Assembly (NCBI GenBank): GCA_018894105.1
Contig: CM032117.1
Coordinates: 41,588,501 to 41,652,500, forward strand
Origin: Jacaranda mimosifolia
Taxonomy: Eukaryota; Streptophyta; Magnoliopsida; Lamiales; Bignoniaceae
Direction of reading: 5' to 3'
DNA: 64,000 bases
Part shown: piece by piece, positions 5,265 through 60,193 of the stretch
Layout: every line of letters starts with the position of its first letter
Numbering within the stretch: position 1 is the stretch's first letter
Position numbers and translations under genes: made by a program
The notes under the pieces: generated by a model
Told to the model about the DNA's origin: nothing
The model's database searches: none
What the model saw: the letters and a program-made list of their open reading frames with translations, nothing else

Positions 5265-6982
5265 TTAGAAAATAGCTTTCTTCTTTCTATTCAGGGAGAC
5301 CAAAATATCTCTCTTTGTGAAATTGCAACCAGCCACTTCCAACTATAGTGAAGATTATTACTACATTCAATATTATTGCATGAGATATTTTATACAATTA
5401 TTACATGAGATTTAGCAAAATCTGATTCTATTCTTAATTCACCATAACAATAAGATAACCACACAGTATTTTATGTATAATTGGTCGAAGATTAAAGTAA
5501 ATGTTCTAAGTCAGACAAGCAACTTAATTTCAATAAAAAATATATTATCTGAGTAAGGCAAGCAATACTCACCAATGACTCTAGAGCACCACCACTTCCA
5601 TAAACGTTTGCAGCTAAAATCGCTTGGCCAGATTTCACCAAGGGCTTTGCATATGGTGGGGCCATTTCATGATTATGCTCCTTTATAAATCTTGAGACCT
5701 TCCATTGACCACTATCATCGCATGCAAAAGATATCATTGCTCTGCATCCTGTTCTTGTTTCCGGCTTTTTATAACCAACACCATTGGCATCTGCTTTGTC
5801 ATCCTTAACCCCTTCCTTCGAGCAACAGTAAGTTTTTGATCTCACCCTTTTGGTTCCCATGAAATAGTATTGCTTTCCCCTTCGGACATTAAAACCCATA
5901 GCTTGAGCATAATCACAATACAACATGTATGCTTCTTCCTCGCTGTACACAGCTTGCTCCAGTAATTTCTTTTCTAATGCAAGAATATGAGCTTCATCTT
6001 GCCCCTCATTCACATCAACCACCTCACCACCAGAACGGAGACGTACAGCTCCTTCTTCATCACTATCTCCACAAACAGCTTCACGGTGTTCCAGATCAAA
6101 CCCAGAATTTTCCATCTCTGTGAAGTTCAACAAATCAATGTGCTAACTAATTAATCTTTCCATAAGCAAATAACACTTTCATAGGTTTTAATCATATAAA
6201 GTTGGGACAAGTGACATACAACTTAACATCATGCCTCTTACACCCCAATCATGAGGGAGAAGCTCAGCAAAAACATGGAATATTATTTCACACACGTTAA
6301 TAAAAGAAAACAAAATTTCAATCGGCACTAGGATTTACAACGCCAAAATAACTAGATAATAATGCAAGTAAAGGACGGCCCCCTAATTCATAACTCAATT
6401 AGAAAATAAAATCTCTTGCCCCCTCTTGTTTCTTGTATGGAATATATGTAAAACTAAACTGAAACCACCTTGTACAGGTGCCTTCTTCAGCATAATTGAT
6501 AAAGTCAGAGTAGAATCTGAATTTATTTTGACATTCATGAACGGATGTTGTTTTCTAGTATTTCGATATTACTAAAGTAATAAATTGTGTGGTAACCACA
6601 CATTAAATAGCATTGGGGCACACATTATAAAATATGTGAATCATAGAATCAACACTTTGAGCGGAAAAAACTCAAAACATCAATATAATCTGAACCCAAG
6701 AAGATAGCTTCAAATAAATTGAAGAACCTATTCTTTCTTACCCACCATCTGATATCTATTTATTCGAGCATCAATTCATTGACAAAGAAAACAATGAACA
6801 CAAAAATAACTCTGACAGAGAGATTAACCTGGGACGGGAAGACGAACTTGATTTCCTACCGCGGCGTCGGTGGAGGAAGGGGTCGCGGCGGCTGAATTCA
6901 GTAACACTTTTGGAGGCATGATCTGCAACTGGTGGGCTCTGTAGACCGGGTCTGCCTCATCAGCTCTCAATCGGAAATTCAT
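5265..6982 (-). CDS. FAR1 DNA-binding domain protein (short FRS-like)
   Basis: Three coding exons on the minus strand: 6982-6829, 6117-5573 and 5342-5265. Junctions: donor CCCAG/GTTAAT, acceptor TTCACAG, donor CATTG/GTGAGT, acceptor CACTATAG. Exon 1 joins exon 2 in frame (..LPVP-E-MENSGFD..), giving about 258 residues, or 237 from the second Met (MPPKVLL, ATG at 6919). The FAR1 domain is in exon 2: YSEEEAYMLYCDYAQAMGFN, then KTYCCSKEG, TRTGCRAMI and FIKEHNHEM, which supply the Cys/His ligands of this WRKY-GCM1 type zinc finger. An acidic stretch precedes it. There is no MULE transposase or SWIM part, so it matches the short FAR1-only proteins of plants (about 200-250 residues). The family is nuclear and DNA-binding; FHY3/FAR1 act in phytochrome A signalling, but the role of the short members is less clear. 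The last exon (LEVAGCNFTKRDILVSLNRK) is the least certain part. Confidence 0.75.
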
Positions 6983-20491: not shown

Positions 20492-21950
20492 CTATGAGGC
20501 ATTCAGAAATGCCCTAACTTTTTCTTTCAGTTGAATCACACTAGCACGAGTGCAACTGGACTTGCAAAGAAGACATTCCAGCTTGTAGTCCACTGAATCA
20601 ACAAGTGTTTCCAGACGACCAGCAAGAGTTTCCACAGTTTTGCTAAGGTCATCTATCTTAGCCTCAAGATCTACATCAACTTTACTGACTTTCCCTTGAG
20701 CCCTTCTTGGTGTTTTAATCGAAGTGGGTCGAGCAGGGATGGATTCTTTAGACTCAGAGCTAATGGAAACTAAAAGTTTAGATTTGCGGGGGCAAAGCTT
20801 AATATTACTAGGAGTTCTACCAATTGCTCTAAACCACCCATCATTCTCAGTGTACTGAATCCTCATTTTCCTAAGGCTGGCGAGGTCTAAGACTTTATGG
20901 TCGTGCTCCCCCTCAATCCAGGCTTTCGGTAAGAAAATACCCTCATGTTTAAAGATGTAGGTGAGGATTATAGAAAAAGGAAAGAATCTTGGCTTGATAG
21001 GAGAAGGTGTAAGCCCTATATTTCAGAATTATGAAGCCAATGCTAACTGGTTCTTATCTAACAACCTTAGCTATCATGTAAAGACTCACGGTATTAAGAT
21101 CAGTGGAGTGACCACCATTAGATACCGGAGATGAAACACAATAAAACTAAGCATTTTGAGGAGCAAAATGTGTTCAATTTTTAGTTTGTTTAAGGCAGCC
21201 CCATCAGATAAAGAAAATTGCTTACCACCCCAAAATAGTTTTGTGATTTTGTCATAAGAAACATCAGCTTCAGACAAATATCCAAAGTTAAAGAACTTAG
21301 TTCCATTATTATGGAGATTAAGTATAAAATTCACTTTGGAGGAAGAAAGCACAATCATTTTTCCAAGAACATAGGACTTAACAGAAATATCATTTCTAGG
21401 CTCAATGAAAGTAAAATTTAAATACAATAGCTTCACCACATGGAGATAAGATCTTTCATCTAACTTCATAAAATTATCCCATTTCGTTTTGCAGACAAGA
21501 TCGATTGCAGAAGATTTGGGTAATGAATTAAAATCTACTGCTTTCCCCCTGTTTAGATTCTACCTAGAAATTTTCTGATGAAAACAATTTTTAGCCTCAG
21601 TAGAATGGAACTTGAGAGAGGAAGGAACCTTACCAAAGTTCCAGTTAGAAATTTCTTCAAGGTTAACTAGAGCTAATGACCTAGGGCTTGAAATTCCCTC
21701 ATTTGAACTGCTTAGTTTTTTAGGAGAACCCATAGGGGTGTCCTTATTACCGAGTTCTTCAGACCCCCATGGACTTTGGTTTGTCAGAGGATGATGATTT
21801 TTCATCATCAAAGATAGAGTCATTATACCATTTGAGCAGAAGATGGGCTTATAATACTTTGAGAGGAGCAAGTTCAGAGGAAGAATGAGGTACTTTCTTT
21901 TTCTTTGAAGTTGAAGGTCTAGATGTTTGGGTATTACCTCTCTTCAGCAT
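20492..21950 (-). pseudogene. Extra ORF downstream of pol (env-like position), decayed
   Basis: An ATG at 21950 opens MLKRGNTQTSRPSTSKKKKV. After stops it continues as WDNFMKLDERSYLHVVKLLY, LNFTFIEPRNDISVKSYVLG, LSSSKVNFILNLHNNGTKFF, and ends in a coiled-coil-like segment (LEAKIDDLSKTVETLAGRLE). The middle resembles the plant putative transposon protein domain (R.Y..LV..FY......), seen in the extra ORF of Sireviruses and in some gypsy elements. In some Sireviruses the ORF at this place has been called env-like. I see no signal peptide or membrane anchor, so an envelope role is not supported here. Its function in the family is unknown. Confidence 0.6.
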
Positions 21951-22479: not shown

Positions 22480-25160
22480 TACCAAAATCATGTAATATTT
22501 GTTTCATCCATAATACCTAGGTGCTGTAATTGCCCAATGCCATCTATTCTGCTTTGGTTGTCGATAATGCAACTAGACTTTGCTTTTTACTGCACCATGA
22601 AACCAAGCAATTTTCTAGTAGTTGACAACCACTACTGTTACTTTTCTTATCTATCTTGCAACCAGCATAATCCACATTAGAATAGCTTATGAAATTGAAG
22701 GATTTAGAATGTGGATTCTACAAGCCATAGTTAGATGTTTCCTTAAGATATCTCAATATTCTTTTCACAACATTTAAATGGGATTCCTTAGGATCGGATT
22801 GGAATCTAGCACATAAGCATATTGAAAACATAATATCTGGACAGCTAATAGTTAGATAGAGTAAGCTACCAATCATACCTCTGTAGACCTTCTCGTCTAC
22901 ATTCTTACGATCTTCATCAAGTTCTAGTCTGGTATTTATACTCATAGGAGTAGTTGTAGGGTTGCATTCACTCATTCCAAACTTCTTTAAAAGCTCTTTT
23001 GTATACTTTTCTTGCTAGATGAATGTCCCTTTCTGAGTTTGCTTCACTTGAAGTCCCAAGAAGAAATTGAACTCTCCCATTAAGCTCATTTCAAATTCCT
23101 ATTTCATTTTCTCGGCAAACTTTTGACAAAGTAGATCATTAGTAGCATCAAAGATAATATCATCAATGTATATTTGAACAATAAGTGAGCCATTTTCTTG
23201 GTGCTTAAAGAATAGTGTGGTATCTAAGATTCCAATAGAAAAATCGTTGTTTATGAGAAAGTTGTTCAAATGATCATACCAGGTCTTAGGAGCTCATTTT
23301 AATCCATATAAAGCCTTTGTTAATTTAAAAACATGATGAGGAAAACTTTAATTTTTGAAGTTGGGCAATTGCTCTACATAAACCTCCTTTTTTATGAATC
23401 CGTTTAGAAAATCACTTTTTACGTCATTTGATAGAGCAAAAACTTTTTATGAGATGCAAAGGCAAGAAACATTCTAATTGATTCTAACCTTGCAACTAGA
23501 GCAAACATTTCATTGTAGTCAATGCCCTCTTGTTGACTATAGCCTTTTGCTACCAGTCTGGCTTTATTCTTGGTAACTTTACCTGTTTCATTTAGTTTAT
23601 TTCTGAATACCCACTTGGTACCAATGGCTGGATGGTCTGATGGTCATTCTACCAAGTTCCAGACTTTATTCTTTTCAAACTAAGCAAGTTCTTCCTTCAT
23701 TACTTCAATCTATAATGGATCTTTTAATGCCTCTCTTATATCCTTAAGTTCAATCATTGAAACGAGGGCACAATTGGATTCATCTAGTGGAACTTGTAGT
23801 TATTCCAGCTTGTGGATCTCCAATGATTTTATTAGTAGGGTGATTGGAAGCATGTTTGAACTTTCTGGTTGTTTGTTCAGGCCTTTCTACTAACTTGCTG
23901 GAACCAGGTTCATTAGTGGGATTTGTTTCCTCAAATGATTCTGGTTCCTCTCGATTTGATATTGATGGCTCAGGATCTGGAATCTTGACTAGTTCTTCGA
24001 ATCTTGCAATTTCTTTGCTCAAGGTTTCCTTGGCATAAGATGGGTTAGCTTCATCAAATGTAACATGCATGGATTCTTGAACAATTCTCTTCCTTTCGTT
24101 AAAAACACGATAGACTTTACTATGCATTGAGTAACCACTAAAGATAGTCTCATCAACTTTGGAATCAAACTTTGTCAAATAGTCTCTATCATTAAGAATG
24201 TAACATTTGCAACCAAAGACACAGAAGTAGGAAGTATTTGGAATTTTACCGTGCCACAATTCATATAGGGTTTTTATCAAGAGTGGTCTTAGAAAGGCAT
24301 GATTTCACACATAACAGGCCGTGTTCATAGCTTCACCCCAAAAGGATTTTGGAAGATCATATTCATTGAGTATGGTTCTAGCTGTTTCTTGCAAATTTTG
24401 GTTTTTCCTTTCAACTACCCCATTTGTTGAGGAGTCTTACGAGTAGAAAAATCATGAATGTAACCATGTTTTTCGCAAAATAGAGTAAAGTTTATTTCAT
24501 CAAACTAAATTCTATGGCCACTTCGAATTTTCTTAATAAAATAACCATTTTCATTTTAAAGCCTTTTAGTGAGTGGAATGAAAGCATTTAAGGTATCATT
24601 TTTATAAGCAAGGAATAAAACCCACGTAAAATGAATATAATCATCTACTATGACAAATACATATCTTTTACCTCCAAGAAAAGCGATTTTCATAGGTCCG
24701 AATAGGTCAATGTGCAGAAGTTCTAGTAGCCTGGAAGTTGTGACCTCATTCTTTGGTTTGAAAGATATTCAAATTTGCTTCCCCTTTTGGCATACATCAC
24801 ACATCCTGTCCTTGGTGAAATTTAACTTGGGTAACCCTTTGACAAGGTCTTTCTTTGTGAAATGAGATATAAGTTCCATTTTTACGTGGCTCATTCTCTC
24901 ATGCCATTTCCAGCATTCTTCATCTGAAGTAGCTAAACACTCCATATTTTGACAGGTTAAATCATCAAGGGTTATACAATAAATATTTCCATCCTTGGTA
25001 GCAGTAAAAACAAGTTTATCACTTTGCTTGATAATACAGTGGGAAGGATGAAATTTAACCTCATAACCTTCATCGCACAGTTGATTGATACTAAGCAAGT
25101 TATGCGTAAGACTTTCAACAAGTCATACGTTATCAATAGAAGTACCAATATGTTTACCAA
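22480..25160 (-). pseudogene. Sirevirus-like pol: pre-integrase, integrase, RT, RNase H
   Basis: Minus-strand order: NLLSINQLCDEGYEV, then pre-integrase HHCC module CWKWHERMSH..CDVCQKGKQ (25000-24770), integrase core LLHIDLFGPMKI and FVIVDDY (24720-24640), its C-terminal PTSVSLVANVTFLMI-type segment and a 166-codon frame at 24280-23780, then reverse transcriptase [36 protein letters not shown] and YIDDIIFDATN with the YxDD active site kept (near 23160), then RNase H region TTPMSINTRLELDED to RILRYLKETSNYGL (22975-22718). More than ten stops and several frame changes. The protease active site (DSG) was not found; the region just upstream of the pre-integrase module appears shortened. Confidence 0.85.
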
Positions 25161-42544: not shown

Positions 42545-42553
42545 ATAATATAA

Positions 42554-42698
42554 TAGTTAATTAGAAAAAAAACTTATAACCCTACTTTCAATTTAGTGTT
42601 CAGTCTCCATTTGAATTTTTACACACTAAACTCCCCACTTTTTCACAAAAGTTAGGAACCACTCCCCATATCTTTTAGAAAGACCTATATACCCTTGC
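42554..42698 (+). repeat. Left terminal inverted repeat of the MULE
   Basis: Inverted partner of 55400-55542, recognisable over about 115 bases from TTTCAATTTAGTGTTCAGTC to TATACCCTTGCAG, with roughly 65-70 percent agreement by eye. Confidence 0.75.
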
Positions 42699-43080
42699 AG
42701 CTGAAAAAAAAACAACAAAAGTACTTGGGAAATGTGTTCTCTCTTGAAGAAGAACGCTTTCCTTTTTTTTTTTTCTTTTTTTGCCTGAAATCGACTTCTC
42801 TAAGCGCCAAAAGAAAAGGGCACGAAACTGTTCCTCTACCATTGACACAAGAAGAAAAAGAAGTGAAAAAAAAGGCACCAAAATTTCTGCCATTTTTCTG
42901 CGATGATGGAAGGAAAAACAGCTGCAACAAGAACAAAGTACAAAAAGAAGTGATCAAAAGAAACAAATGTATGTTTTCTGCATTTGCAATTTCAAATGTC
43001 CGTGATTTTTCAGTGTTAACACTCATTTCTTGTCTATTTTATCATGTTTAGGGTTTTTATTCCTTTTTTAGTCATTAAAC
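42699..43080 (+). other. Probable 5' leader of the Ulp1-like gene
   Basis: Purine/pyrimidine-biased sequence (runs of T at 42760-42780, AAGAAGAAAAAGAAGTG near 42850) between the terminal repeat and the repeat array. Open frames on both strands here are low-complexity. The good acceptor at 45456-45459 needs a donor upstream, so a 5' untranslated exon is expected in this area. Inference only. Confidence 0.35.
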
Positions 43081-43237
43081 ACTTGAACCCCTTTGATATA
43101 TATATATATATAATTTTTGTTGTGAGATGAAAAGTTTCTGATTTGTACTTGAAGGGCATGAAAGTTGCACTTCACCTTTTAGGGGTTTATACTTCTTTTT
43201 AAATGAAATTATATGGTGAAATTATACGATAAAACTA

Positions 43238-45440
43238 TTGGAAAGTGGTAGTGTGTTATTTGTAGTATAGAACATCCATACATGCAGTACACATTAGCAA
43301 AAGTGTAGTATATAATATGGGTAACCGTAGTACATTTTAGAAGCAAATGTAGTATAAAACATTCAAACTTGCAGTACACATTAGGCAAAAGGGTAGTATA
43401 GTATATAATATGTATAGCTGCAGTACATTTTAGGGGCATCTGCAGTACACATTAAGCAAAAGTATAGTATATAATTTGTGTAGGTGCAGTACATTTTAGA
43501 AGCAAATGTAGTATAAACACTCAAGCATAGAGTACACATTAGGCAAAAGTGTAGTATATAATGTGTAGGTGCAGTACATTTTAGGAGCATCTGCAGTACA
43601 CATTAGGCAAAATTGTAGTATATAATCTGTGTAGGTGCAGCACATTTTAGAAGTAAATGTAGTACAAAACATTCAAACTTGCAGTACACTTTAGGCATAA
43701 GTGTATTGTGTAGTATATAATCTATGTAGCCTGCAGTACATTTTAGAAGCAAAGTAGTATAAAGTAATCAAGCTGACAGTACACTTTACGCAAAAGGGTA
43801 GTATATAATCTGTATAGCTGCAGTACATTTTAGGAGCACCTGCAGTATACATTAGGCAAAAGTGTAGTATATAATCTGTGTAGGTGCATCACATTTTAGA
43901 AGCAAATGTAGTATAAAACATTAAAACCTGCAGTACACTTTAGGCATAAGTGTAGTATATAATCTTTATAGCTGCATTACATTTTAGTAGCAAATGTAGT
44001 ATAAAACATTTAAGCTGGCAGTACACTTTAGACATAAGTGTAGTATATAATCTGTGTTGCTGCAGTACATTTTAGAAATAATACACATTAGGCAAAAGGA
44101 TAGTATATAATTTGTATAGCTGCAATACATTTTAGGAGCATCTACAGTGCATTTTAGGCAAAAGTGTAGTATATAATCTCTGTAGGTGCAGTACATTTTA
44201 GAAGTAAATATAGTATAAAATATTCAAACTTTCAGTATACTTTAAGCATAAGTGTAGTATATAATCTGTGTAGCTGCAGTACATTTTAGAAGCAAGGTAG
44301 TAAAAGGATTCAAGCTGGCAGTACACTTTAGGCAAAAGTGTAGTATATAATCTTTATAGCTGCAGTACATTTTAGGAGCACCTGCAATACACATTAGGCA
44401 AAAGTGTAGTAGATAATCTGTGTAGGTGCAGCACATTTTAGAAGCAAATGTAGTATAAAACATTCAAACTGGCAGTACACTTTAGGTATAATTGTAGTAT
44501 ATAATCTTTAGAGCTGCAGTACATTTTAGAAGCAAATGTAGTATAAAACATTCAAACATGCAGTACAGAATAGGCAAAAGAGTAGTATATAATTTGTATA
44601 CCTGCAGTACATTTTAGGAACATCTGCAGTACACTTTAGGCAAAAGTGTAGTATATAATCTCTGTAGGTGCAGTACATTTTAGAAGCAAATGTAGTATAA
44701 AACATTCAAACTGGCAGTACACTTTAGGCATAAGTGTATATAATCTGTAGAGTTGCAGTACATTTTAGAAGCAAATGTAGTATAAAACATTCAAACTTGC
44801 AGTACACTTTAGGCATAAGTGTAGTATATAATCTTTAGAGCTGCAGTACATTTTAGAAACAAATGTAGTATAAAGCATTCAAGCTTGCAGTACACATTTG
44901 GCAAAAGGTAGTATATAATCTATATAGCTACAGTACATTTTAGGAGCATCTGGAGTACACTTTAAGTAAAAGTGTAATATATAATCTCTGTAGGTGCAAT
45001 ACATTTTAGAAGCAAATGTAGTATAAAATATTTAAATTAGCAGTACACTTTAGGCATAAGTGTAGTATATAATCTGTAGAGTTGCAGTACATTTTAGAAG
45101 CATCTTTAGTACATAAACATTCAAGCCTGCATTATACATTAACTAAAAATGTAGTATATAATCTTTGCATCTGCTACCCATTTTAGAAGCAACTAAAGTA
45201 TAAAACCTTTAAGCCTGCAGTATACATTAAATGGAACTCTAGTATATAATTTGTGTATCTGCAGTACATTTTAAAAGCAACTGTAGTATAAAACATTCAA
45301 GCTTGAAGTATAGAATAACTGAATGTGTAGTATATATTATGTGTTTCTGAAGTACATTTTAGAAGCATATTTAATACAAAACATTCAAGTTTTTAGTACA
45401 CTCTATCTAAAAGGGTTAGTTTATTATCTATTTATATACT
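43238..45440 (+). repeat. Left tandem array with 22-bp phased AGTACA/AGTATA units
   Basis: About 25 copies of an 87-88 bp unit, each made of four 22-mers that start AGTACATTTTAGAAGC, AGTATAAAACATTCAA, AGTACACTTTAGGC and AGTATATAATCTGTG. Counting shows 22 bases from each AGTAYA to the next in the typical unit. Some copies lack one or two 22-mers. The array ends just before a strong splice acceptor (TTTTTTTCTCATTACAG), so it probably forms the first intron of the Ulp1-like gene. Short open frames on the minus strand in it are repeat artefacts. Confidence 0.9.
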
Positions 45441-45459
45441 AATTTTTTTCTCATTACAG

Positions 45460-48400
45460 CAAAGCCAAGATATTGTGAGGTCTACTCTCGTTGCTCCCCC
45501 CAATATGTTCAGAGTAAATTGGAGCTTGTGAACTCCAAGATAGGGGTCCAAACATTTTGATGCATTGAAGAAGACCCATTTCTATATATACATGGATATG
45601 CCTAAGTTAAGTTCAAACTTCATTCGGCTTGAAGTTATACTTAAGAGGTTTGACCCAAAAAAGCTGTCATTTCATTTTGCAAAAGGGGTTGAGGTTCCTT
45701 TTTCTGCAGCTGAATTTTCTATGGTTTTAGGGTTGCCACATGTGGGGCAAACTGTTGATATAACATTGAAGATGAAGCCTTCAACCTTTGACCACCTTTT
45801 TTCTTGAAAGCTGCAAAATATAACTAGATCTGAAATAGCAAAAAAGTTTGAGGAGTATGTATATAAGGATAGTATGGAGGACTTGAATAATTTTTGTAGG
45901 TTGTACATACTTTTTGTTTTTAATTATATTCTGTTTCCAACATCTAATTATTGGACTCTACGATTTCTCCTACCATACTTGGACAATTTGTCTAGAGTTG
46001 GTCTATATGCATGGGGCATAACTGCATACAATTTTCTTGTCCAAGATATGAGGAACCATTTAGGAGTAGGTGGAGAAAGAACAAAGAAATACATTGATAG
46101 GTGTACAGTCGGCTTGATGGTAAGTGTTTGTTTCATTTTTCTAATAACATTGATCATATTTATATTCAAATGAGTATAATTTTTCGATTTATGAATGACA
46201 GGCATAGGTTTATGAACGCATATCGTCACTGGCTTCACCAGTAAGTTTGTTTGAGTTTTCCACGCTTTTACCGGTGGAAGGATAGCAAACTCCCACATAA
46301 TGTGGAATAGGTGGAGAATAAATTGAAGCAAGTTACAGCAGATATGGTAATAATTGTAATAATTCATTATTAGTTTTTTGTATAATAATTTGAATTTGAT
46401 AATTATTTCCATTATAATAAGTTGTAGCCATCAACCCTACTCCAGAGGAGTTAGAATTGGCAGTTTTCATCAAGAAATTAGAGGCTGCCAGTATTGCCAT
46501 CAATGAAATCCATGTCTATGATCATACAATATATGAAACAATTATTGCAGTGAAAGTTGAAGCAATTAAATCATTGAAAGAAAAAATTGCTTCATTCGAA
46601 TAGATGGCAATGAAGGAGTAGGGTGAGGAGGAGCATCTAGCTGAGGACAAGACTGATGGGGTGGAGCTTGAGCAGGAAGCCGGTAAGTATGTGCATAAGG
46701 GGGGACTTGATTTGGTACATGATGCACAGAAAGAAGGAGATGGTTCTAAAGACATGGTGGATGAAGAAAGTCGAACAAAACACCATCATGATCCTTCAGA
46801 TTTCTCCATACCTTTGAAGACAGAACATTATATACCAATTCAAGCGGCTGAGTTCGAGGGATCTGAGATTGAAGTGGCAAATGTCATGTCCTCAATTGTG
46901 ATAAATGTGCGCAATCGAAAAGACAGGAAGCCAAAACAGAAATCTCCAGATTTTGTCAGCCCCCCGAGCACCACACTAGCCAAAAGAGCAAGACAAGTGA
47001 TAAAGACCTATCGTGCTCGTCGTCGTGCACGAAAAAATAAAGAACAAGAAGAGAAGAAGGTGTTGTACACTATTTAATATTTTATTTTGTTGCTATTTGC
47101 ATTTCATTTGTAAACTGTCTGTTTGTAATAAATGTAATGATATCTTATACTTGATTGGTTGATATTTGCACTTAAAGGATGATATCTTATACTTCATGTT
47201 GGTGATACTTGTACTTAATGTGCTTATCTTTTGTACTCCAAGTTGGTGATATTTATACTTAATATACTAATCTTTTGCACTTAATGTTGGCGATATTTGT
47301 ACTTCATGTGCTGATCTTTATACTTCAATAGTTGATACTTTATACCTTATGTGCTAGTGTTTTGTACTCCATGTTAGGATATTTGTACTTCAAGTGCTGA
47401 TCTTTTGTACTTCAATAGTTGATACTTTATACCTAATGTGCTTGACTTTAGTACTCCATGTTGGTGATATTTTTACTTCATGTGCTTATCTTTTCTACTT
47501 CAGTAGTTGATACTTTATACTTGATGTGCTTGAGTTTAGTACTCCATGTGGCAGATGAATCAACCAGCCCAAAGACTAAAGCGGTTGATCCGTATAAAGG
47601 AAGGACTGATTATAGAGGTCTTGCTCTTATTCCAGTAGAAGAGCAAGAAGTCATCGACAACTTTATCAGAAGAGATAATTTGAGGTAACAAAATTTGCTT
47701 ATTATTTTTCTTTTAGATAAATTGGTATCTGAACTAACAATTAACAATTGTGTAGGGTGACTGCCTGGGAGGGAGCAAGACAGTTTCTAGATGGAAGAAA
47801 CTTTTATGAGCTCTTATTTGGAGGAGAACTTACCAATGACATAGTGGACTGCTACATATCGATATTATGTAGCCCATCTTTCGGCAAGAAGTGTCACCAC
47901 AAGGTGTGGTTTGCGTCCTCAATAGAGCAGGTATGTTGCAGTTTCCTAACTTAATTTGGTTCACGTTTCCAATGAGTCTAACCATTTGTTTTATACTTCA
48001 TAGACTGATATATTAGACCGACTCGAAGGACGCAACATCAAGGATATTACAGATGAAGAATTTGTGGAGTTGATACCTAAACTTAACACCTTCACCTGTA
48101 AAGATTTGGAAAATCTCACGGTAGATGTTTTAAACTAGTGTCGTTACATAATCCTACCGATTTGCCAGCACCATCACTAGTTCTTGGTTGTCCTCAACAC
48201 CTCGACTCGTTCTTTCTTATACATGAATTCAATAATGGCCGCCAGATACAAACCGACAGCTGTTGCCATTGTAAGTTTGCTTCCTTTCCTTATAATTTCT
48301 TCATAAAGTAAGGAGTTAACAACTGATCAATATTTTTGTAGGCTTCATTCTATTCTCAGTACATGAAGCTTTCATTAGGGAGTCGTGTGGACAAATACAT

Positions 48401-48588
48401 CAGGCAGAAAAAAAAAAAATAGGCAGCTAGTGGGTACAGTGAATTATGGTGTCTATGTGTGCCTTTGGGCAGAATGTTTTGCTAGAGACACCCTTGAGTT
48501 CTGGAGGGATGCTAAAACAATTGAAATTGATAAATATCGTGCGACAATGGCATATACAATATTAAGTCATGAAAATGCTAGGATTTGA
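45460..48588 (+). pseudogene. MULE-borne Ulp1/SENP-like (C48) cysteine protease gene with DUF1985-like region
   Basis: Exons by splice sites: 45460-46119, about 46201-46320, about 46430-47077, 47555-47684, 47756-47930, 48004-48270, 48342-48588. The N-terminal part (RLEVILKRFDPKKLSFHFAK, VPFSAAEFSMVLGLP, FCRLYILFVFNYILFPTSNY) is the DUF1985-like domain of plant transposon Ulp1 proteins. A basic stretch KRARQVIKTYRARRRARKNK looks like a nuclear signal. The protease domain reads NFYELLFGGELTNDIVDCYI, HHH-stop-FLVVLNTSTRS, LYMNSIMAARY and VNYGVYVCLWAECFARDTLE. In the family these are HW (catalytic His), LDS (Asp) and DCG (nucleophile Cys). Here W is TAG, D is N and DC is NY. Ulp1 enzymes remove SUMO, but this copy cannot. 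Further frameshifts: near 45540 and at a 12-A run (48407-48418). Confidence 0.85.
47085..47545 (+). repeat. 22-bp phased repeat array inside an intron of the Ulp1-like gene
   Basis: TACTT/TACTC recurs at mostly 21-22 base spacing, for example TACTTAATGTGCTTATCTTTTG followed by TACTCCAAGTTGGTGATATT(TA). In reverse complement this is AAGTA(C/T), the same core as in the other arrays, so here the repeat is inverted relative to the gene. It is bounded by a donor after 47077 and the acceptor ATGTGGCAG at 47546-47554. Confidence 0.85.
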
Positions 48589-48689
48589 ATCACTTTGTAT
48601 GTAAATACATGTGTAAATTGAAGCATACTTTGTTTATAATATTATTTTGTATGTAAGTGTAATTTTCCATTACTTTATTTATAACTTAA

Positions 48690-49085
48690 ATTCAATTGAA
48701 ACAGGGCAGCGAATTTGAGTACAATTCATGGGAAATGAAGTACAAACTTAGAATAAACAAAGTATAAAATGTGATTCGTTGAAGTACACTTCAATTCAAT
48801 TGAAACTGGGCGGCGAATTTGAGTGCATTTTGAGGGCAATGAAGTACAAACCCGGAACAAAGAAAGTATAAAATGTGTTTTGCTGAAGAACACTAAAATT
48901 CAATTGAAATTGGGCAGGGAATTTGAGTATAATTCAGGAGAAACGAAGTACAAACTCAGTACAATTCTGGAGAAATGAAGTACAAACTCAAAATAAACCA
49001 AGTCTAAAATGTGTTTTGCTGAAGTACACTTATTGCAATTGAATAAGTATTCTCCAATAATTGTAATGATGGTCAAGTACAATAA
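48690..49085 (+). repeat. 22-bp phased repeats between the two MULE genes, part 1
   Basis: About five AGTACA/AGTATA-led 21-22-mers form larger units that repeat (CAATTGAAACTGGGC(G)G.GAATTTGAGT near 48690, 48800 and 48900). It starts about 100 bases after the stop of the Ulp1-like gene. Confidence 0.8.
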
Positions 49086-49369
49086 TTTGAGATTATCGGA
49101 TATGGTGAAGTACGAATTTGTACCTGTGATAGGGTGGATATCATCATCAAATTCTCATTTGTTTACATCTTTGAAAGCATAAGTATTCTTTCATTATTGC
49201 AATTGATAACATTCATCCGTTGAACACTAGTGATTAACAACTTAAAAATTTTAACATAGGATAAATATTAGACACATATTTATAGTTTGGTTATTAATTA
49301 CCAAGACTTAAAAAACAAATCTTTGAACAAATTTCAATTCAAAAATATTAGTAAAAATATTCAGATATT

Positions 49370-49940
49370 AAGTACAAAGTTGCCCAAGTGAGGTACAAAT
49401 GTGAAGAAATCAAGTACAATTATGAGGTACAAAATTTAACTATGTCTCGGACAACATGCAAGAATGCTAATTTCACGCTAAATCACCTGCCTTATTGCAC
49501 AAGTGAAGTACAAATATGAAGAAATCTAGTACAATTTTCCCAAATTGAGGTACAAAATTTAACTATATCTCGGACAACATGCAAGAATGCTAATTTCACG
49601 CTAAATCACCTGCCTCATTGCCCAAGTGAGGTACAAATGTGAAGAAATCAAATACAATTATCCCAGATTGAGGTACAAAATTTAACTATGTCTCAGACAA
49701 CATGCAAGAATGCTAATTTCATGCTAAATCACCTGCCTCATTGCCCAAGTGAGGTACAAACGTGAAGAAATCTAGTACAATTTTCCCAAATTGAGGTACA
49801 AAATTAAACTATGTCTCGGACAACATGCAAGAATGCTAATTTCACGCTAAATCACCTGCCTCATTGCCCAAGTGAGGTACAAATGTGAAGAAATAAAGTA
49901 CAATTATCCCAGATTGAGGTACAAAAATTAACTAGTTTTC
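49370..49940 (+). repeat. 123-bp tandem repeat, four copies, between the two MULE genes
   Basis: The block containing ACAACATGCAAGAATGCTAA recurs at 49451, 49574, 49697 and 49820, a constant 123-base period. Each unit carries GGTACAAATGTGAAGAAATC and AGTACAATT..CCCA.ATTGA, in which GTACA recurs every 21 bases. The array runs to the 3' end of the transposase gene. Confidence 0.9.
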
Positions 49941-52900
49941 TGATTCTTTGCAAGTTCAACGATTATGCCCTGTTCCACAATACCTTTTACACTTAATTAC
50001 ATGATTCTCAATCTTTGATGGAATCCTCTGTGTCCTTCTACGCCCAGGCCGAGATCGGTAGTCAGGTGCATGAATGACGACATCATCATCTAGAGGGAAC
50101 ATATGCATATCAAACGTAAGAATAGAGTTTATCACTGCTTGGTATGCTTGTTGATACATCTCAACTCGGTAGTATTGATCAGTGAAGTCATACGGTGAAA
50201 GTGACTTTGACTCGATATAAGCACAAGTATGTCTGCATGGTATTTTATCAATCTGCCATGCTCTGCATGAACAAACCCCGCTATGTAAATCTACAGGATA
50301 CGATTTATCTTGCTCAATCACCTCAAAGTTCCAACCGCTAGACATGACAACTTTTAAGTTACGAGAACGCATATGATTGATTGCCAACTTCTTCTCTTGC
50401 TTGGGACATAATTGACCAATCATCTTATGAGATTCTTCTCGTCGATCATGCATCATAACCATTATTTGCATGTGTATGTGATCAACCATGGCTGCAACTA
50501 GCATAAATTGGGCTGGTTTAACCCAATTATTCCAACTTTCTGCTTGATTATTGTTTATTACCCCCCATCGATCTCCACTGAATAAGGAATTTGCCCAACA
50601 TGGTGGGTCAGATTGCATAATAAAGTCTGTGGCAAGCAGCATTGACTCCAAGATGATGTCTATATGTCGGGTATACTCCTGCCTTGTAGGCGCATATGCA
50701 GCTTTCATAAAAACATAACACCAATGTTTCTTATTATGTAGATGGTACTTCCTTAATACCTGAATTTAAAATAATAGAACAGTAATGTGCTAAATGTTAT
50801 GAATTAGAGTTTATTTCACATAATTGTCTCACAAACAAAGATAAAGTACACTTACTTGTTTCTTAAAGTTATCTACTAAGTGTCTCAAGCAATATGCATG
50901 GTGGCTACCTGGAAATATCATGGGGAGGGCCTTAAGAAGACCTGGATGTCGATCGGAGAATAAAGTAAACCTTGATAAGCTAGGCAGATATGCAGAATCT
51001 AAGACACTTCTTAGCTTAAAGCATAACCACTCCCAATTAATATCATTTTCAGAGTCAACAATAGCATATGCTAACATGAATGAGTCATTATTAGCATCCT
51101 TACTGACAGCGCTGAGTAAGACTCCATTGTATTTATTTTTAATATGGGTGCCATCCAAGAATATCAACGGCCTACATCCTTTGAGAAAACCAAGAAGGCG
51201 GGTACTGAAACATATAAATAGCCGAAGAAATTTTTGAATAATTGGGTCAATCTCACAGTCTGCAATACTTCCAGGGTTTGTCCTCTTCACAGCATCACAG
51301 TACCACCTCAACTTATCATAAGACCCCTTCTCAGCTCCATGGATGTCATGCATAGCTAATTCCTTACCCATCCATGCTTTATGGTACCTAACTTCCACAC
51401 CGTATTCTTTGTGGATATCTTTCAATATGGTAAAGGGCCGATAACATGGCTCTGATCTTAATTTATCCTTCACTATGTTAGCAACCTAAGAGGAATCGGC
51501 TTTAGGATGTCCCCTTGTCCGAAGATTAGCTTTACCACATGTGTGCTCTAGATTGTATTTTCGAATGCTAAATAATTTATCAGCCTCATGCCTTGATGCA
51601 TAGATTCTCCATTTGCAATTTTCATCACTGAAAACGGCTATGATTTTTTTGCTTTCATTTTTCTTGTATTTAAATGACGGCAAAGTAGACACTGCATAAT
51701 TCTTAAGCATAATTCTGAACTCCAGAGCATCCTTGAATGTTTGACCCTCTCCATATATGCAATTCCTCTATGCATCAATTGAGTTGCCAATTAAAGTCAA
51801 TTCATTGTGCGATGCATTGGTTGAACCAATTTCCTCCTCGACTGCATCCCTTGAGGTTGACAAATGAAGTACAATTTTAGGTAAAATAAAGTACAATATG
51901 TAGAATAATCCAGCATTGTGGTATAATTTCAAATAAACGAAGTACAATTTCAGAACAATAGAAGTATAAAACGCAAGCAATTGCAGTACAATTTTTGATA
52001 ATCAATATGTAAAGCACTTTAAGTATAGAACTTTAGGTAAAATGAAGTGCAAAATTAATAGAACTTTATAAACTTAAATAATGGAGAACAATTTTATGTA
52101 AAAGCTTAAGTATAATTTTATATAAAAAGAAGTACAATTTCAGAACGCATGAAGTATAAAACCTTAGCAATTGCAGTACAATTTTTGAATAATCCATTAG
52201 TAGAACACTTGAAAATTAAATAAGAGATTCACAAAATAGAAGTACAAGTTAAAATAAAATGAAGTATAATTTGAGAACACTTGAAGTATAGACTTCAATG
52301 AAAAGAGTACAGATTTAGGTAAAATAATGTATAAAATGAAGTATAATTTTAAGAAATAGAAGTACAACTTTTGATAAAATGAAGTACAATTTCAGAACAC
52401 CTGAAGTATAGAACTTCAATGAAAATAATACAAATTTAGGTAAAATGATGTATAAATTGAAGTATAATTTCAAAAAATAAAAGTATAATTTTAGATAAAG
52501 TGAAGTACAATTTCAGAACGCATGAAGTATAAAACCTTAGCAATTGCAGTATAATTTTTTGATAATCCATTAGTAGAACACTTGAAAATTAAATAAGAGA
52601 TTCATAAAATTGAAGTACAAGTTTAGATAAAATAAAGTACAATTTGAGAACACTTGAAGAATAGAATTTCAATGAAAACAGTACGGATTTAGGTAAAATA
52701 ATGTATAAAATGAAGTATAATTTCAAAAAATTGAAGTACAATTTTTGATAAAGTAAAGTACAATTTCAAACACTTGAAGTATAAAACCTTAGCAATTGAA
52801 GTACAAATTGGATAATTTATTAGTAAAAAGCTTGAAATTTTAGTAGTAAATTCAGATAACTAAAGTACAAGTTGAGATAAAATGAAGTACAATTTCGGAA

Positions 52901-55132
52901 CACTTGAAGTAAAGAACTTCAATGAATAGAGTACATGTTTAGGTAACATGATGTATAAAATGAAGTATATTTCAAAAAATAGAAGTACAATTTTAGACAA
53001 AGTGAAGTACAATTTCAGAACACCTGAAGTATAGAACTTCAATGAAAAGAATACAAATTTAGGTGAAATTATGTAAAAACTGAAATATAATTTCAAAATA
53101 CCGAAGTACAATTTTAGATAAAGCGAAGTACAATTTCAGAACACCTGAAGGATAAAACCTTAGCTATTGCAGTATAATTTTTGGATAATCCATTAGTAGA
53201 ACGCTTCAAAATTAAATAATAGGTTGAGATAATTGAAGTACAAGTTTAGATAAAATGAAGTACAATTTCAGACACTTGAAGTATAGAACTTCAATGAATG
53301 GAGTACAAGTTTAGGTAAAATGATGTATAAAATGAAGTATAATTTCAAAAAATAGAAGTACAATTTTGATAAAGTGAAGTACAATTCTGAACACCTGAAG
53401 TATAGAACTTCAATGAAAAGAATGCAAGTTTAGGTAAAATGATGTATCAAATGAAGTATAATTCCAAAAAATATAAGTACAATTTTTGATAAAGTGAAAT
53501 ACAATTTCAGAACACGTGAAGTATAAAACCTTAGCAATTGCAGTACAATATTTGGATAATCCATTAGTAGAACACGGGAAACTTAAATAATAGATTCAGA
53601 TACTTGGAACACTTGAAGTATATAACTTCAATGAATAGAGTACAGGTTTAGATAAAATGAAGTATAATTTCAGAAAATAGAAGTACCATTTTATATAAAA
53701 AGAAGTACAATTTGAGAACACATGAAGTATAAATCCTTAGCAATTGCAGTACGATTTTGTATAATCAATTAGTAGAACACTTGAAGTATAAATATAAAAC
53801 TTACATAATAAATTCAGATAATTGAAGTGCAAGTTTAGTAAAATGAAGTACAATTTGAGAGCACCTGAAGTATAGAACTTCAATGACAAGAGTACAGATT
53901 TAAGTAAAATGATGTCTAAAATGAAGTATAATTTTAAAAAACAGAAGTACAATTTTTGATAAAGTGAAGAACAATTTCAGAACACTTGAAGTATAAAACC
54001 TTAGCAATTGCAGTACAAATTGGATAATTTATTAGTAGAAAACTTGAAAGTCAAATAATAGATTCAGATAATTGAATTACAAGTTTAGATAAAATGAAGT
54101 ACAATTAATAAATATGACACTTAAAGTACAAATGAATTAAAACTGCAGTATATTTTGGATAATTAATAAATATGACACTTAAAGTATAGACATTCAATAA
54201 ATAGAGTATAGATTTTGTAAAATAAAGTATAATCTCAAAAAATTGAAGTACAATTTTAGATAAAAAGAAGTACAGTTTGGGAACACTTCAGGTATAAATC
54301 GCTAGCAATAGCAGTATAACTTTGGATAATCAATTAGTAGAACACTTTGAAGTATAAAACTTAAATAATAGAGTACAGTTTTAGTGAAATGAAGTACAAT
54401 TTTAGATAACTGGAGTACAAATTTGTATAAAATGAAGTACAATTTTTGAACAATTGAAGTATAAAACCCTAGTAACTGTAGTACAGTTTTGGTAAATGAA
54501 GTATAATTTCAGAAAACCGAAAGTATAGTTTTATATAGAATACGTACATTTTGGGAACACTTCAAGTATAAACTGCTACAAGTTGCAGTACAATTTTAGA
54601 TAATCCATTAGTAGAACACTTGAAGTATAAATCTTACATAATAGAGTATAATTTTTGTGAGATGAAGTACAATGTTAATTGCAATGAAGTATAATGTAGA
54701 ACGCTCCAAGCAGAGAAAGATTTTCAAATAAATAGAGTGCAATTTCAGAACACTTCAAGTATAAAACTTTACAAACTGCAGTACAATTTAGATTTTAAAA
54801 AGTATTACCTTAAAACATCACTGCTCTTCTTTGCTCTGCTGCTTGATTCACCCTTTCAGTTTACCAGGATGTCAAAAATATTCATCTTCAATGTCAAATG
54901 CAATAAGACCATATTCATGACATCGTCGTCATCAGTTAAACTCACGTTTTGATGTGGAGCTATATATTGCAAACTGAAGTGCTCGGCGTCAATTTCACTC
55001 CATTTCTTGCGAGATTAATGTACATGTCATTAAAGTCATACTATCCTTAATTGACATTATATGGAGCTGGTCTTTGTATCGGCAACTCCCCAACACTTGA
55101 TTGAACACACTTGCTTCATTACTAGTTGACAT
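49932..55132 (-). pseudogene. MURA-type MULE transposase gene, disabled by nonsense codons
   Basis: Proposed exons: 55132-54865 (donor CCTG/GTAAAC), about 51849-50856 (donor CAA/GTAAGT), 50759-49932 (acceptor AAATTCAG). Exon 1 carries a PB1-like region (VSLTDDDDVMNMVLLHLTLK) in a frame shifted against its ATG. Exon 2 has the MuDR N-terminal domain (FKDALEFRIMLKNYAVS, CKWRIYASRHEADKLFSIRK, NLEHTCG) and the MULE transposase domain with both Asp (FLDGTHIKNKYNG, LFSDRHPGLLKA) and CLRHLVDNFKK. Exon 3 holds the Glu candidate (NNNQAESWNNW), the SWIM zinc finger (CSCRAWQIDKIPCRHTCAYI) and a CCHC knuckle (CKRYCGTGHNR-stop-TC). In-frame stops: TAG 51770-51768, TAG 51488-51486, TGA 49958-49956. Otherwise the frame is open for some 600 codons, so inactivation is recent compared with the other elements. 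The product would bind the terminal repeats and move the element. Confidence 0.9.
51860..54800 (+). repeat. Right tandem array with 22-bp phased AGTACA/AGTATA units
   Basis: Typical units are AGTACAATTTCAGAACACTT(GA), AGTATAGAACTTCAATGAAT(AG) and AGTACAAGTTTAGGTAAAAT(GA), each 22 bases, in higher-order units of about 200-260 bases that also contain CCTTAGCAATTGCAGTA and GATAATCCATTAGTAGAACA. The array fills the space between transposase exons 1 and 2 and is thus probably an intron of about 3 kb. Small open frames here are artefacts. Confidence 0.9.
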
Positions 55133-55399
55133 TGTTGGAAAAATATAAGAAACTCAGAAGCAACTGAGAAGAAACTGAGAAGAAGATGAAACCCGAAAAT
55201 GATGAAAATAAAAAGAGAAGAAGACAAAGCAGATGTTGGGTTGGTGGTTTTTGGCTCTAACATTATTCTCGTTCCCATCGTGGAGCTTGTTGCATTTTTT
55301 CTGTTCTTTCTGTTTCTGGTAATGAGCGTATGATAGGGTTGATTGTTTGCTTGTGTGGATGAAGAAGAAGTGAGAAAAAATGAGTGAAAAATATTATAC
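55133..55399 (-). other. Probable promoter and 5' leader of the MULE transposase gene
   Basis: The stretch between the transposase start and the right terminal repeat is rich in TTC/CTTCTT on the minus strand, similar in character to the leader region at the left end. No TATA box was chosen with confidence. Confidence 0.35.
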
Positions 55400-55542
55400 T
55401 TAAGGGCATTTTTGTCAAATCAAGTGAGTAGAGAGTGATCTCTAAAATTTTAACAAAATTAAGGAGTTTTTTCTAATAAAAATCAAGTGGGGACTGAACA
55501 TGAAATTGAAAAATACTTTTTGTACTTTTAAATAAGTGCCCC
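55400..55542 (-). repeat. Right terminal inverted repeat of the MULE
   Basis: Minus-strand start GGGGCACTTATTTAAAAGTA followed by CAAAAAGTATT and TTCAATTTCATGTTCAGTCC; pairs with 42554-42698. It also contains an AGTACA core. Confidence 0.8.
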
Positions 55543-55551
55543 ATAATATAA

Positions 55552-56676: not shown

Positions 56677-56795
56677 TATGGTATCAGAGCAGGAACTTCT
56701 TTCCTGACTATGCAGTGCACTTTTTCTTTTTCCTTTCTTTTTTTTTTTCCTGCAGATTCTTGGACTTATTCTAAGGAAAGACCTAATCTCTCATA

Positions 56796-59700
56796 ATGTC
56801 AGAAGTTACCTGTGACATAGCTCCTTCTTCCTCTAGAGTGACTGAAAATCGCATCCACCATATGAAGACTGGAGACAAAATTGCTCGTGCAAATGAAGCT
56901 GATTTAGTCCCTTTTAGTAAAGAGCAGATTGATCAACTTTTAAAGCTGCTTAAAACCAATTCTCTATCTGGTACTCCTAGTGGTTCTTTGGCTCAAACAG
57001 GTAGAGAGTCTAGTGTTTTTTCATCCCATTCTGTTTCAACACCTTGGATCATTGATTCAGATGCTTCAGACCACATGACAAATCATTGCCATCTTTTCCT
57101 TTCGTATTCATCTTGTTCTAATAATAAAATGGTCAGAATTGCAGATGGAAATTTCTCACCCATTGCAGGAAAAGGATCTGTAAAAATCTCAGAGAACATA
57201 ACCTTAAAATCTATTCTACATATTCCTAATCTTGCATGTAACCTATTATCAGTGAGTCAACTATCTAAAGATTTTAATTGCCTTGTTGTTTTCTCTAATT
57301 CTTGTTGTGAATTCCAGGAGTTGAGCATGGGGATGATGATTGGTAGTGCTAGAATGGTGATGGTCTTTACTACGTTGATGACAACTTTCTCCAAAATAAA
57401 CAAGCTGAAGGCTTTGGTACTAGTATGAGTTCTCTTTCTGTTTGTGAAAAAAATTATGATTCGGCATCTTCGATTAGGATATCCTAGTTTTTTATATTTG
57501 AAATACTTATTTCCAGGATTATTTAAACGTGTGGATTATTCTTCTTTTGAATGTGAAAGTTATTTGTTATCCAAAAGCCATCATTCTACTTATAGTCCAA
57601 AACCATATTGTGCTTCAAAACCTTTCAATTTAATCTATAATGATGTGTGGTGACCTTTAAGATTTACCACATACTCAGGAAAAAAATGGTTTGTAACTTT
57701 TATAGATGATCATACTCGTCTATGTTGGATACACTTGATGAATGATAAATCTGAAGTTGAAAGAATTTTTTTCATATGGTTGAAACTCAATTTCAGACCA
57801 AAATAAAGATTTTTCATTCTGATAATGGAAGAGAATACTTTAATCAGTTGTTAGGGAGTTTTTTAAAGGAGAAAGGGATTCAACACCAATCTAATTGTAT
57901 GACACTCCTCAACAAAATGGAATTTCATAAAGAAAAAATAAGCACTTACTTTAAGTTGCTCGTGCTATTATGTTTTCAATGAATATACCAAAATACTTAT
58001 TGGGGGATGCTATTTTAACAGCATGCTACTTAATAAATAGGATGCCTACTCATGTGTTAAAGTATACAACTCCTCTAGAGTGTTTTGAAAGGTATTTTCC
58101 TCAATGCAGATTTTTTTTTTATTTACCCTTAAAAGTTTTCGGGTGCACTGCCTTTGTCCACAGCCCCAGTAGACTCTGTTCTAAACTTGATCTTAGAGCA
58201 GAAAAGTGTGTATTTATTGGATATGCACCAAATAAAAAGAGGTATAAGTGTTATAATCCTGAAACAAGAAAGTTTTTTGTAAGTATGGATGTTTCCTTTG
58301 TTGAAACTAGGCATATTTCAGAAAAACTGTCTTAAAGGGGAGATAGGAAATGAAGATCAGTTTTGGAAAACTTCTATTCCTCTACCTAACATTTTTTTAC
58401 CTCCCTACACTGGTCAAAAAACTAATAATCCTCCTATGTCAAACATAGAAGATTTACAAACATAAGGAGAAATACCAGGGCAGGAACACATTAAACCTAC
58501 CTTAGAGCTCTGTGTTTATTGTAGGAGAGGTACTCATTAGAGTAAAGATATATCTGTTATTCTAGCACAAGATCGATCACTATGTTCGGGTGATGTTTCA
58601 TCCACCACTTCAAGTAATTCTGACAACCCTACTTTGAGTCCTACTATTGTTGATCTTGATGTTCCTATAGCACTTAGGAAAGGAGTCAAAACTTGTACCA
58701 AGCATTCTATTGCTAAATATGTGTCTTACCATCGTCTTTTTACTACTCATAAAGCTTTTATCTCAAATATCTTTAATTTGTTTATTCCCAGAACTATTCA
58801 GGAAGCTTTAGATAGTTCTAATTGGAAAACAACAGTTTTAGAAGAGATGAACACTTTGCAAAAGAATAAAACCTGGAAGATAGTTGATCTACCAAAGGAG
58901 AAGAAAATGGTAGGATGTAAATGGGTGTTTACAATTAAGTGTAAAACTGATGGTAGCATACAGATGTATAAGGCACGGTTAGTGGCTAAAGGATTCACAC
59001 AGGCACATGGAATTGATTACCAGTAGAATTTTGCCCCAGTTGCAAAAATTAATTCACTCCGTGTCCTGCTCTCCTTGGCAGTTAATTTTGATTGGCCTTT
59101 ACACTAGTTAGATGTAAAGAATGCGTTTTTGAATGGGGAGTTAGAAGAGGAGGTCTTTATGAATCTACCACCAGGTTTTGAGAAGAGTCTTGGTGAAGGG
59201 AAAGTGTGCAAATTGAAGAAATTGTTGTATGGACTTAAACGTTCTCCTAGAGCATTGTTTGAGCGTTTTGGAAAAGCTGTAAGGGCCCATGGATACACAT
59301 AAAGCCAAACAGATCATACCATGTTCTATAAGCATTCTGAAGAGAAAAAAATTGCTATTTTGATTGTTTATGTTGATGATATTATAATAACAGGCGATGA
59401 TCTTGATAAGATCAAAAGACTTAAGAAGGTTTTTGCAAACAACTTTGAGATTATGGATTTATTAGCCTTAAAATACTTCTTAGGAATGGAGTTAGCTAGA
59501 TCTAAAAGAGGTGTCTTTGTGTCTCAAAGGAAATATCTATTGGATCTTCTTAAAGAGACAGATCTACTCGGATACAGGGCTGCAGAAACACCTATTGATC
59601 CTAAGTGAAGCTCCAACATGCTAAACTAGAAGAAGTTAAAAAAGAGAACAGTTCCAAAGGTTGGTTGGGATGCTAATTTATTTATCCCATACTCTTTCTG

Positions 59701-60193
59701 ACATAACTTTTGTAGTGAGCATGGTAAGCCAATTTATGCACTCTCCAAGCTCAGAACACTTTGAAGCTGTTTACAGAATTCTAAGATACTTAAAAGGTTT
59801 ACCAAGGAAGGGCTTACTATTTGAAAGGAATGGTCACCTACGAATTGAAGTGTACACAGATGCGGATTGGGCTGGAAACACAATTGATAGAAGGTCAACA
59901 TCGGGATATTGCACTTCTGTTGGAGGAAATCTAGTCACTTGGCGAAGCAAGAAACAAAATGTAGTGCAAGAAGCAGTGCAGAAGTTGAATTTAGATCAGT
60001 TGCTCATGGAATTTGTGAAGTGTTGTGGATCAAAAGGATTTTAGATGAACTAAAGGTTGGAAGTAATTCTCCTATAAAAGTGTATTGTGATAATAAGGCT
60101 GCAATTTCAATTGCCTATAATTCTGTTCTCCAGGACATAACCAAGCATGTTGAGGTAGACAAGCACTTCATCAAAGAAAAGGTAGAGAGTTGA
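56796..60193 (+). pseudogene. Copia polyprotein with gag deletion and stops
   Basis: ATG at 56796 opens MSEVTCDIAPSSSRVTENRI, then a short gag-derived piece (FSKEQIDQLLKLLKTNS) directly followed by protease WIIDSDASDHMT, where family DSGASDHM has G changed to D. Then pre-integrase LRLGYPSFLYLKYLFPGLF, integrase TFIDDHTRLCWI-like pieces and FHSDNGREYFNQ, integrase end KVFGCTAFVHSPSRLCSKLD, RT MVGCKWVFTIKCKTDGSIQ, YVDDIIITGDDL (active site kept, near 59370), LKYFLGMELARSKRGVFVSQ, and RNase [21 protein letters not shown] and VYCDNKAAISIA. About eight stops or frame changes. The capsid part of gag appears deleted, so the element would depend on others. Confidence 0.85.

Follow-up and report, generated by a model that had tools for sequence, protein, structure and literature searches.

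Arrays of AGTAYA at 21-22 bp spacing in a Mutator-like element family of Jacaranda mimosifolia as predicted target sites of a VANC-type protein

A Mutator-like element (MULE) of Jacaranda mimosifolia raises the question of why one short core, AGTAYA, recurs at steps of 21-22 bp through much of its non-coding DNA. The analysis covers the window, i.e., the whole stretch of 64,000 nt (contig CM032117.1) in which the element lies, and a search of the same genome (707 Mb). A preliminary description had proposed that arrays of this core share their spacing; this main claim stands, whereas the sizes of the higher-order units, the core of one array, the sharing of filler and the placement of the arrays needed correction. 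We consider it probable, at a little under 0.8, that the arrays serve as targets for an anti-silencing protein of the VANC type, predicted from the family's own gene, which resembles DUF1985 and Ulp1.

Five arrays and the constraint on the core in the two largest

Within the element, AGTAYA occurs 218 times, 197 times on the forward and 21 times on the reverse strand, compared with about 13 expected from the rate in the remaining 51,011 bases of the window (25 forward and 26 reverse). A first-order Markov model predicts 16.5 (forward) and 9.8 (reverse), with maxima of 30 and 18 over 200 runs. Five arrays, A1 to A5 (Table 1), hold 206 of the 218 cores, and Tandem Repeats Finder (TRF) detects arrays at each of the five sites described before, with rows of 22 or 44 bp in A1, A2, and A5. 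The recurrence at 21-22 bp is borne out by 61 three-core combs with two successive 22-bp steps in the window, none of which was obtained in 100 shuffles. Gaps of 21 or 22 bp make up 65/83 of the consecutive gaps in A1, 6/11 in A2, 6/11 in A3, 1/5 in A4, and 57/90 in A5. In the autocorrelation suggested earlier as a check, no pair distance is commoner than 22 bp in A1, A2, A5, or A3, where four distances tie; in A4, AGTAYA is too rare to give a peak. The orientation within an array is uniform, with 84 forward and one reverse AGTAYA in A1, 12 reverse in A2, and 12, 6, and 91 forward in A3, A4, and A5, respectively.

AGTACA is the sole 6-mer found among the 60 most enriched of each of the five arrays. 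A TG at positions -3/-2 is present in every array, extending the motif to TGNRGTAYA, which recurs in all five, and the base after the core is mostly A, except in A1. AGTACA and AGTATA tend to alternate along A1. The core had been given as AGTAYA throughout, but in A4 (49370-49940) AGGTACA accounts for 9/15 and AGTACA for 6/15 of the cores. Higher-order units of 88 bp on the left and 123 bp in the centre agree with our measurements, but the 200-260 bp proposed on the right do not: units there measure 371-373 bp or close to 120 bp, with 107 and 167 bp as further sizes. The arrays at 47 kb and 48.7 kb have units of 88 and 104 bp, respectively. The arrays are nested tandem duplications, as expected from the copying mechanism that had been put forward. 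A2 and A5 have one inverted stretch in common (40 nt, 83%). The observed/expected ratio of CpG is 0.04 in A1 (43264-45400) and 0.09 in A2 (47146-47521), compared with 0.45 for the window, which could equally come from a CpG-free repeated unit; CHG sites in A1 are above average (37 per kb compared with 21).

When each array was aligned to its own higher-order unit and the filler expectation was base-matched, the core was found to diverge less than its surroundings in the two large arrays. In A1, 26/603 core positions are mismatched where 65 mismatches would be expected (filler 184/1556), and in A5, 54/656 where 119 would be expected (filler 391/2186), so that core divergence is 2.2-2.5 times lower than that of base-matched filler. 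In a ranking of the 22 offsets that used single 22-mers (80 and 65 for the two arrays), no other six-column window diverges as little as the core in A1 or in A5, at any of the four identity cuts. Within the core, variation is lowest at the three A's and highest at the C/T position.

Neutral growth of tandem repeats offers an account of the arrays that needs no binding protein: a 22-bp unit bearing AGTAYA would have been expanded by slippage and unequal exchange and carried to other parts of the element, leaving the common core as no more than residual ancestry. Nested higher-order units and array sizes that vary between copies are consistent with this, and so is filler of A5 that is partly common with A1 or A2. 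Filler had been described as unshared between arrays; this fails for A2-A5 and A1-A5, whose fillers match better than register-shuffled ones in 300/300 and 298/300 trials, and the signal is weaker for the remaining four pairs (257-283 of 300), in a comparison of A1, A2, A3, and A5 that takes in the TG adjoining the core. Neutral growth alone is nevertheless unlikely, since the core is less diverged than base-matched filler and ranks first among the offsets in A1 and A5, is common to five arrays despite much differing filler, and avoids coding DNA (4/218 cores lie within the 3,851 bases marked as coding by eye).

The element and its two genes

The element is flanked on both sides by the exact 9-mer ATAATATAA, consistent with the target-site duplication of about 9 bp of a MULE. 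ATAATATAA is one of two exact 9-mers from a scan of 100 x 100 positions and is preferred over the other pair, a chance match, because the terminal inverted repeats fit. These repeats are degenerate, as in VANDAL-type elements, with a best ungapped match of 31/40 and poorly pairing outermost bases. Some 710 bp separate the left end from the first array, and the last array stops about 760 bp short of the right end. Outside the element, 16 TRF rows are found up to 42.5 kb and none beyond 55.6 kb.

The transposase carries the domains MULE (68.6 bits), DBD_Tnp_Mut (55 bits), and SWIM (26.8 bits), all above cut-off, which places the element among the MULEs. The N-termini of 44 of its 94 protein relatives align to 54800-55150 on the reverse strand, with the remainder of the gene starting near 51875; therefore, A5 fills a transposase intron of about 2.9 kb. 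A donor-like AAG|GTAATA is present at its edge, and the window's own stretch matches PB1 with E=0.071 only. Of these relatives, 63 are named Henckelia or Primulina, i.e., Gesneriaceae of the order Lamiales. When 26 of the 94 relatives are placed in a tree together with the window sequence, proteins from Zingiber (P0015, P0019, P0065, and P0071) and Curcuma (P0042) nest at two places among those of Henckelia and Primulina, suggesting that either horizontal transfer or mislabelled sequence may have put ginger-family transposases inside a Gesneriaceae clade.

The second gene runs opposite to the transposase gene, as in KIU-type elements (KI-MULEs). If one in-frame stop is read through, 45556-46119 matches DUF1985 with E=6.8e-6 (26.5 bits) and the Plant Mobile Domain with E=2.9e-5; without read-through, the open reading frame (ORF) matches DUF1985 with E=0.072 only. 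Relatives in the genome possess open frames of 245-283 aa that match DUF1985 with E=3.4e-4 to 1.9e-6. Peptidase_C48 (Ulp1) is recognised in one relative (L071, stops read as X) with 22.2 bits at a cut-off of 20.7, as expected for the KIU type, and in a second frame with 18.0 bits, and the Ulp1 catalytic motif occurs in 8/9 relatives having the stretch. In the window copy, neither the domain nor this motif was found by domain profile scans, PDB sequence search, and motif check; the PDB matches for Ulp1 were at chance level only, and an NCBIfam scan gave no match. The window element is a decayed copy, at most a target and not a source of the protein.

The arrays were said to lie in introns of both genes. 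This is correct for A5, but A3 and A4 seem to fall between the genes. As judged by eye, coding stretches of the second gene flank A2 on either side, and A1 extends up to an acceptor-like site that precedes the DUF1985-like exon. The element contains a short motif in dense one-direction arrays in its non-coding DNA, as do VANC targets.

Table 1. Features of the MULE in the window (positions in the window).
Feature	Position	Strand	Remarks
MULE	42554..55542		9-bp direct repeat on both sides; degenerate terminal inverted repeats
Left target-site duplication (predicted)	42545..42553	+	ATAATATAA; exact 9-mer match
Right target-site duplication (predicted)	55543..55551	+	ATAATATAA; exact 9-mer match
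Array A1	43264..45400	+	85 [AG]GTAYA; 88-bp higher-order unit; AGTACA/AGTATA alternating
Second gene, interrupted	45460..48588	+	DUF1985/Plant-Mobile-Domain-like exon; C-terminal exons Ulp1-like, as assigned from relatives; limits of exons set by eye
DUF1985/Plant-Mobile-Domain-like match within second gene	45679-46041	+	Profile match
Array A2	47146..47521	-	14 cores; 88-bp unit; flanked on either side by coding stretches of + gene
Array A3	48718..49081	+	12 cores; 104-bp unit
Array A4	49371..49923	+	15 cores (AGGTACA in 9); 123-bp unit
Main transposase exons (DBD_Tnp_Mut, MULE, SWIM)	49944..51875	-	One stop and one small intron-like gap
Array A5	51868..54785	+	93 cores; 371/121-bp units; within transposase-gene intron
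N-terminal (PB1-type) transposase exon	54820..55132	-	Far side of A5; 44/94 relatives match; 0 AGTAYA cores

The family in the Jacaranda genome

Pairs of AGTACA at a distance of 22 bp number 31,144 (16,280 + 14,864) in the genome, compared with 261 (107 + 154) for a reversed-pattern control. A search with the DUF1985 region gave 1,735 candidates, of which 150 were scored; 48 of these 150 share one score, 368.0 bits, suggesting that the family may have expanded recently. Most of the matches listed have no internal stop, and all 30 of the 30 best loci carry 50-73 AGTAYA within 1.5 kb.

Ten relatives, drawn from the best DUF1985 loci and other matches, were examined as 15-kb stretches, and their arrays were assigned by position and core type. 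Arrays of the A1, A3, and A4 types occupy the same place in the same direction in 10/10; an antisense A2 is found in 9/10 and is lacking in one, and A5 is found in 9/10, the stretch of the remaining relative ending inside an enlarged A4-type array. In this relative (L063-L064, G000:C3:8461182-8476182), the A4-type array of AGTACA and GGTACA starts at about 7.9 kb, still continues where the 15 kb end, and is far longer than in the other nine. Among 2,195 gaps in eleven elements, 22 bp (n=892) and 21 bp (n=392) together account for 1,284, and 42-44 bp for 251. Ranked by gaps of 21 or 22 bp over the ten relatives, GTACAA (224) and AGTACA (189) come first, both among the 120 permutations of AGTACA and among 6-mers in general. 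From this layout and these gap counts it follows that the spacing is conserved while array length and units change, in agreement with the expectation that relatives would keep their arrays at the same spacing.

A further proposal, that all cores face one side of the DNA, is poorly supported. A component of 10.3-10.9 bp is found in all five window arrays and surpasses that of 20-22 bp in A2 to A5, not in A1. Across the eleven elements, the preferred off-phase gaps are 26, 34, 37, 55, and 61 bp (in the range of 24-41 bp: 26 bp, n=20; 34 bp, n=18; 37 bp, n=14), in-phase and out-of-phase values being mixed, so that strict helical phasing is not supported.

Two array-rich copies, picked for their cores and therefore proof of existence rather than of frequency, retain little or nothing of the genes. 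In one (L075, G000:C1:71500-79500; 8 kb, 152 cores), tblastn with four of a relative's proteins yields no match; in the other (L076; 8.5 kb, 137 cores), it yields two fragments, both of the transposase end only. L075 is palindromic, with inverted arms of about 1.9 kb at 95% identity and arrays in both directions.

A tblastn search for relatives in viral and genome contig collections found none. A four-core comb matched 16 viral-contig stretches with 0.8-9.1 AGTAYA per kb, which are unrelated as far as tested. Elsewhere in the window, ORFs at 56787-60041 (+) and 23783-25122 (-) resemble, by eye, decayed pieces of copia-type retrotransposons, an ORF at 21089-21559 (-) has a weak match to PF20167, a plant transposon protein family (E=0.00047, below cut-off), and an ORF at 5495-6142 (-) has a FAR1 DNA-binding domain (E=2.5e-25).

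Candidate proteins for binding the arrays, and known systems

The element family is best read as a VANC-like, KIU-type system with the motif AGTAYA, with binding and demethylation as predicted activities, because a MULE transposase, an opposite DUF1985-like gene with an Ulp1-like end, and one-direction arrays in non-coding DNA correspond to the anatomy of VANDAL elements and their VANC genes. In the published systems, the element encodes a DUF1985(-Ulp1) protein that binds a short, tandemly repeated motif within the element's own non-coding DNA and removes DNA methylation. The preliminary description had offered a bound protein, the transposase or another, as one explanation; a protein with selection on the core does fit best, given the least-diverged core, the TGNRGTAYA in five arrays, and the relatives, but the transposase is a less likely candidate than the product of the second gene. 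AGTAYA is best read as a new motif for such a system, no search having been made for prior mention of AGTAYA arrays. Several observations weigh against this assignment. The DUF1985 match stays below the Pfam cut-off of 35.1 bits in the window and in the relatives scanned (21.1-28.3 bits), the Plant Mobile Domain scores about equally well, and no homologue of the protein from the window's second gene turned up in protein searches. The smaller arrays A2, A3, and A4 are not informative on the core, which is without significant constraint there (13 mismatches compared with 16.1 expected, 3 with 6.3, and 1 with 1.1). When the filler is capped at 2/16 mismatches, the core advantage in the large arrays shrinks (0.049 compared with 0.067; 0.059 compared with 0.072), in part because the cap itself causes shrinkage. 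Finally, since filler is partly common to the arrays, common descent accounts for part of the core sharing.

Many short sites within one element are bound by the transposase in En/Spm, in the form of subterminal repeats, and the transposase of the Jacaranda element might bind AGTAYA likewise; it carries a DNA-binding domain, and arrays are kept in copies with few gene remnants. Unlike subterminal repeats, the Jacaranda sites start about 700 bp inside the ends and fill introns and intergenic DNA rather than the ends, and the second gene encodes a binder with better precedent (PMC5735166), so that binding by the transposase seems very unlikely. Silencing-related arrays, serving for example as sources of 22-nt small interfering RNA (siRNA) or as bait for RNA-directed DNA methylation (RdDM), are likewise very unlikely as the cause of the pattern: tandem repeats can be a source of siRNA, RdDM acts on the non-coding parts of VANDAL elements (PMC10398659), and both the palindromic copy and the inverted stretch of A2 and A5 would suit such a role, but conservation is confined to the short core and TG where small-RNA matching would constrain the whole unit, and the spacing runs from core to core rather than reflecting transcript length. 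In the sequence data covered, nothing points to a 22-nt small RNA as the cause; small-RNA involvement is compatible as a consequence, not a cause, of the arrays.

For the VANC-type protein, the following course of events may be envisaged. An intact DUF1985-Ulp1-like protein would bind many AGTAYA sites at once, so that specificity would come from density and spacing and not from a single site; the bound protein would strip DNA methylation and silencing across the element and thereby permit expression of the transposase and of its own gene. Tandem duplication would enlarge the arrays while selection holds the core and the filler drifts, and gene-poor copies would ride on protein made by other elements. 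It is possible, though we regard it as doubtful, that this VANC lineage reads AGTAYA as a comb, recognising the 21-22 bp repetition itself, so that spacing would be the address of thousands of elements and array-only copies would spread by borrowing the protein. A 2022 study of VANC systems in eudicots is said to name DUF1985, DUF287, and Ulp1 in its abstract and reportedly finds that helical periodicity counts along with the sequence and density of the motif; if this is correct, a role for spacing has already been published for Arabidopsis. The Jacaranda family combines, in one genome, a concrete motif with a candidate protein to bind it and with a very large set of natural targets, and it does so in a plant other than the species in which VANC systems were elucidated. 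Its regular spacing gives a direct way to ask whether such proteins read spacing, and its array-rich, gene-poor copies are a natural test of whether targets alone suffice to stay active.

Among known systems, the family resembles VANDAL21/VANC21 and VANDAL6/VANC6 of Arabidopsis. VANC21 binds arrays of YAGTATTAY in intron, intergenic, and terminal DNA, which occur in one direction, at high density, and in C- and T-type variants, VANC6 targets carry AGTTGTCC/AGTTGTAC, and VANDAL motif arrays grow by tandem repeats (Hosaka and co-workers, PMC5735166). The same non-coding regions of VANDAL elements are acted on by RdDM, and VANDAL terminal inverted repeats are degenerate (Sasaki and co-workers, PMC10398659). 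Common to these Arabidopsis elements (PMC5735166) and the Jacaranda family are a short motif beginning with AGT and having C/T variants, dense one-direction tandem arrays in introns and intergenic DNA that grow by tandem repeats, and a transposase accompanied by a second gene, which is of DUF1985 type in Arabidopsis and has a weak match to DUF1985 here. In contrast, the Jacaranda motif is AGTAYA, its binding is predicted, and it recurs in regular 21-22 bp steps, whereas the available text of PMC5735166 states no spacing for VANDAL arrays. VANC genes with Ulp1 (KIU) are conserved in eudicots according to a review (PMC13317346), and the Ulp1-type end of the second gene, recognised above the Pfam cut-off in a relative, and its orientation opposite to the transposase are shared with KIU/Kaonashi (KI-MULE) elements (PMC13317346, PMC2528002). 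Unlike these, the window copy is decayed, and its host is not among Arabidopsis, grapevine, melon, and rice, the plants named in the available parts of both sources.

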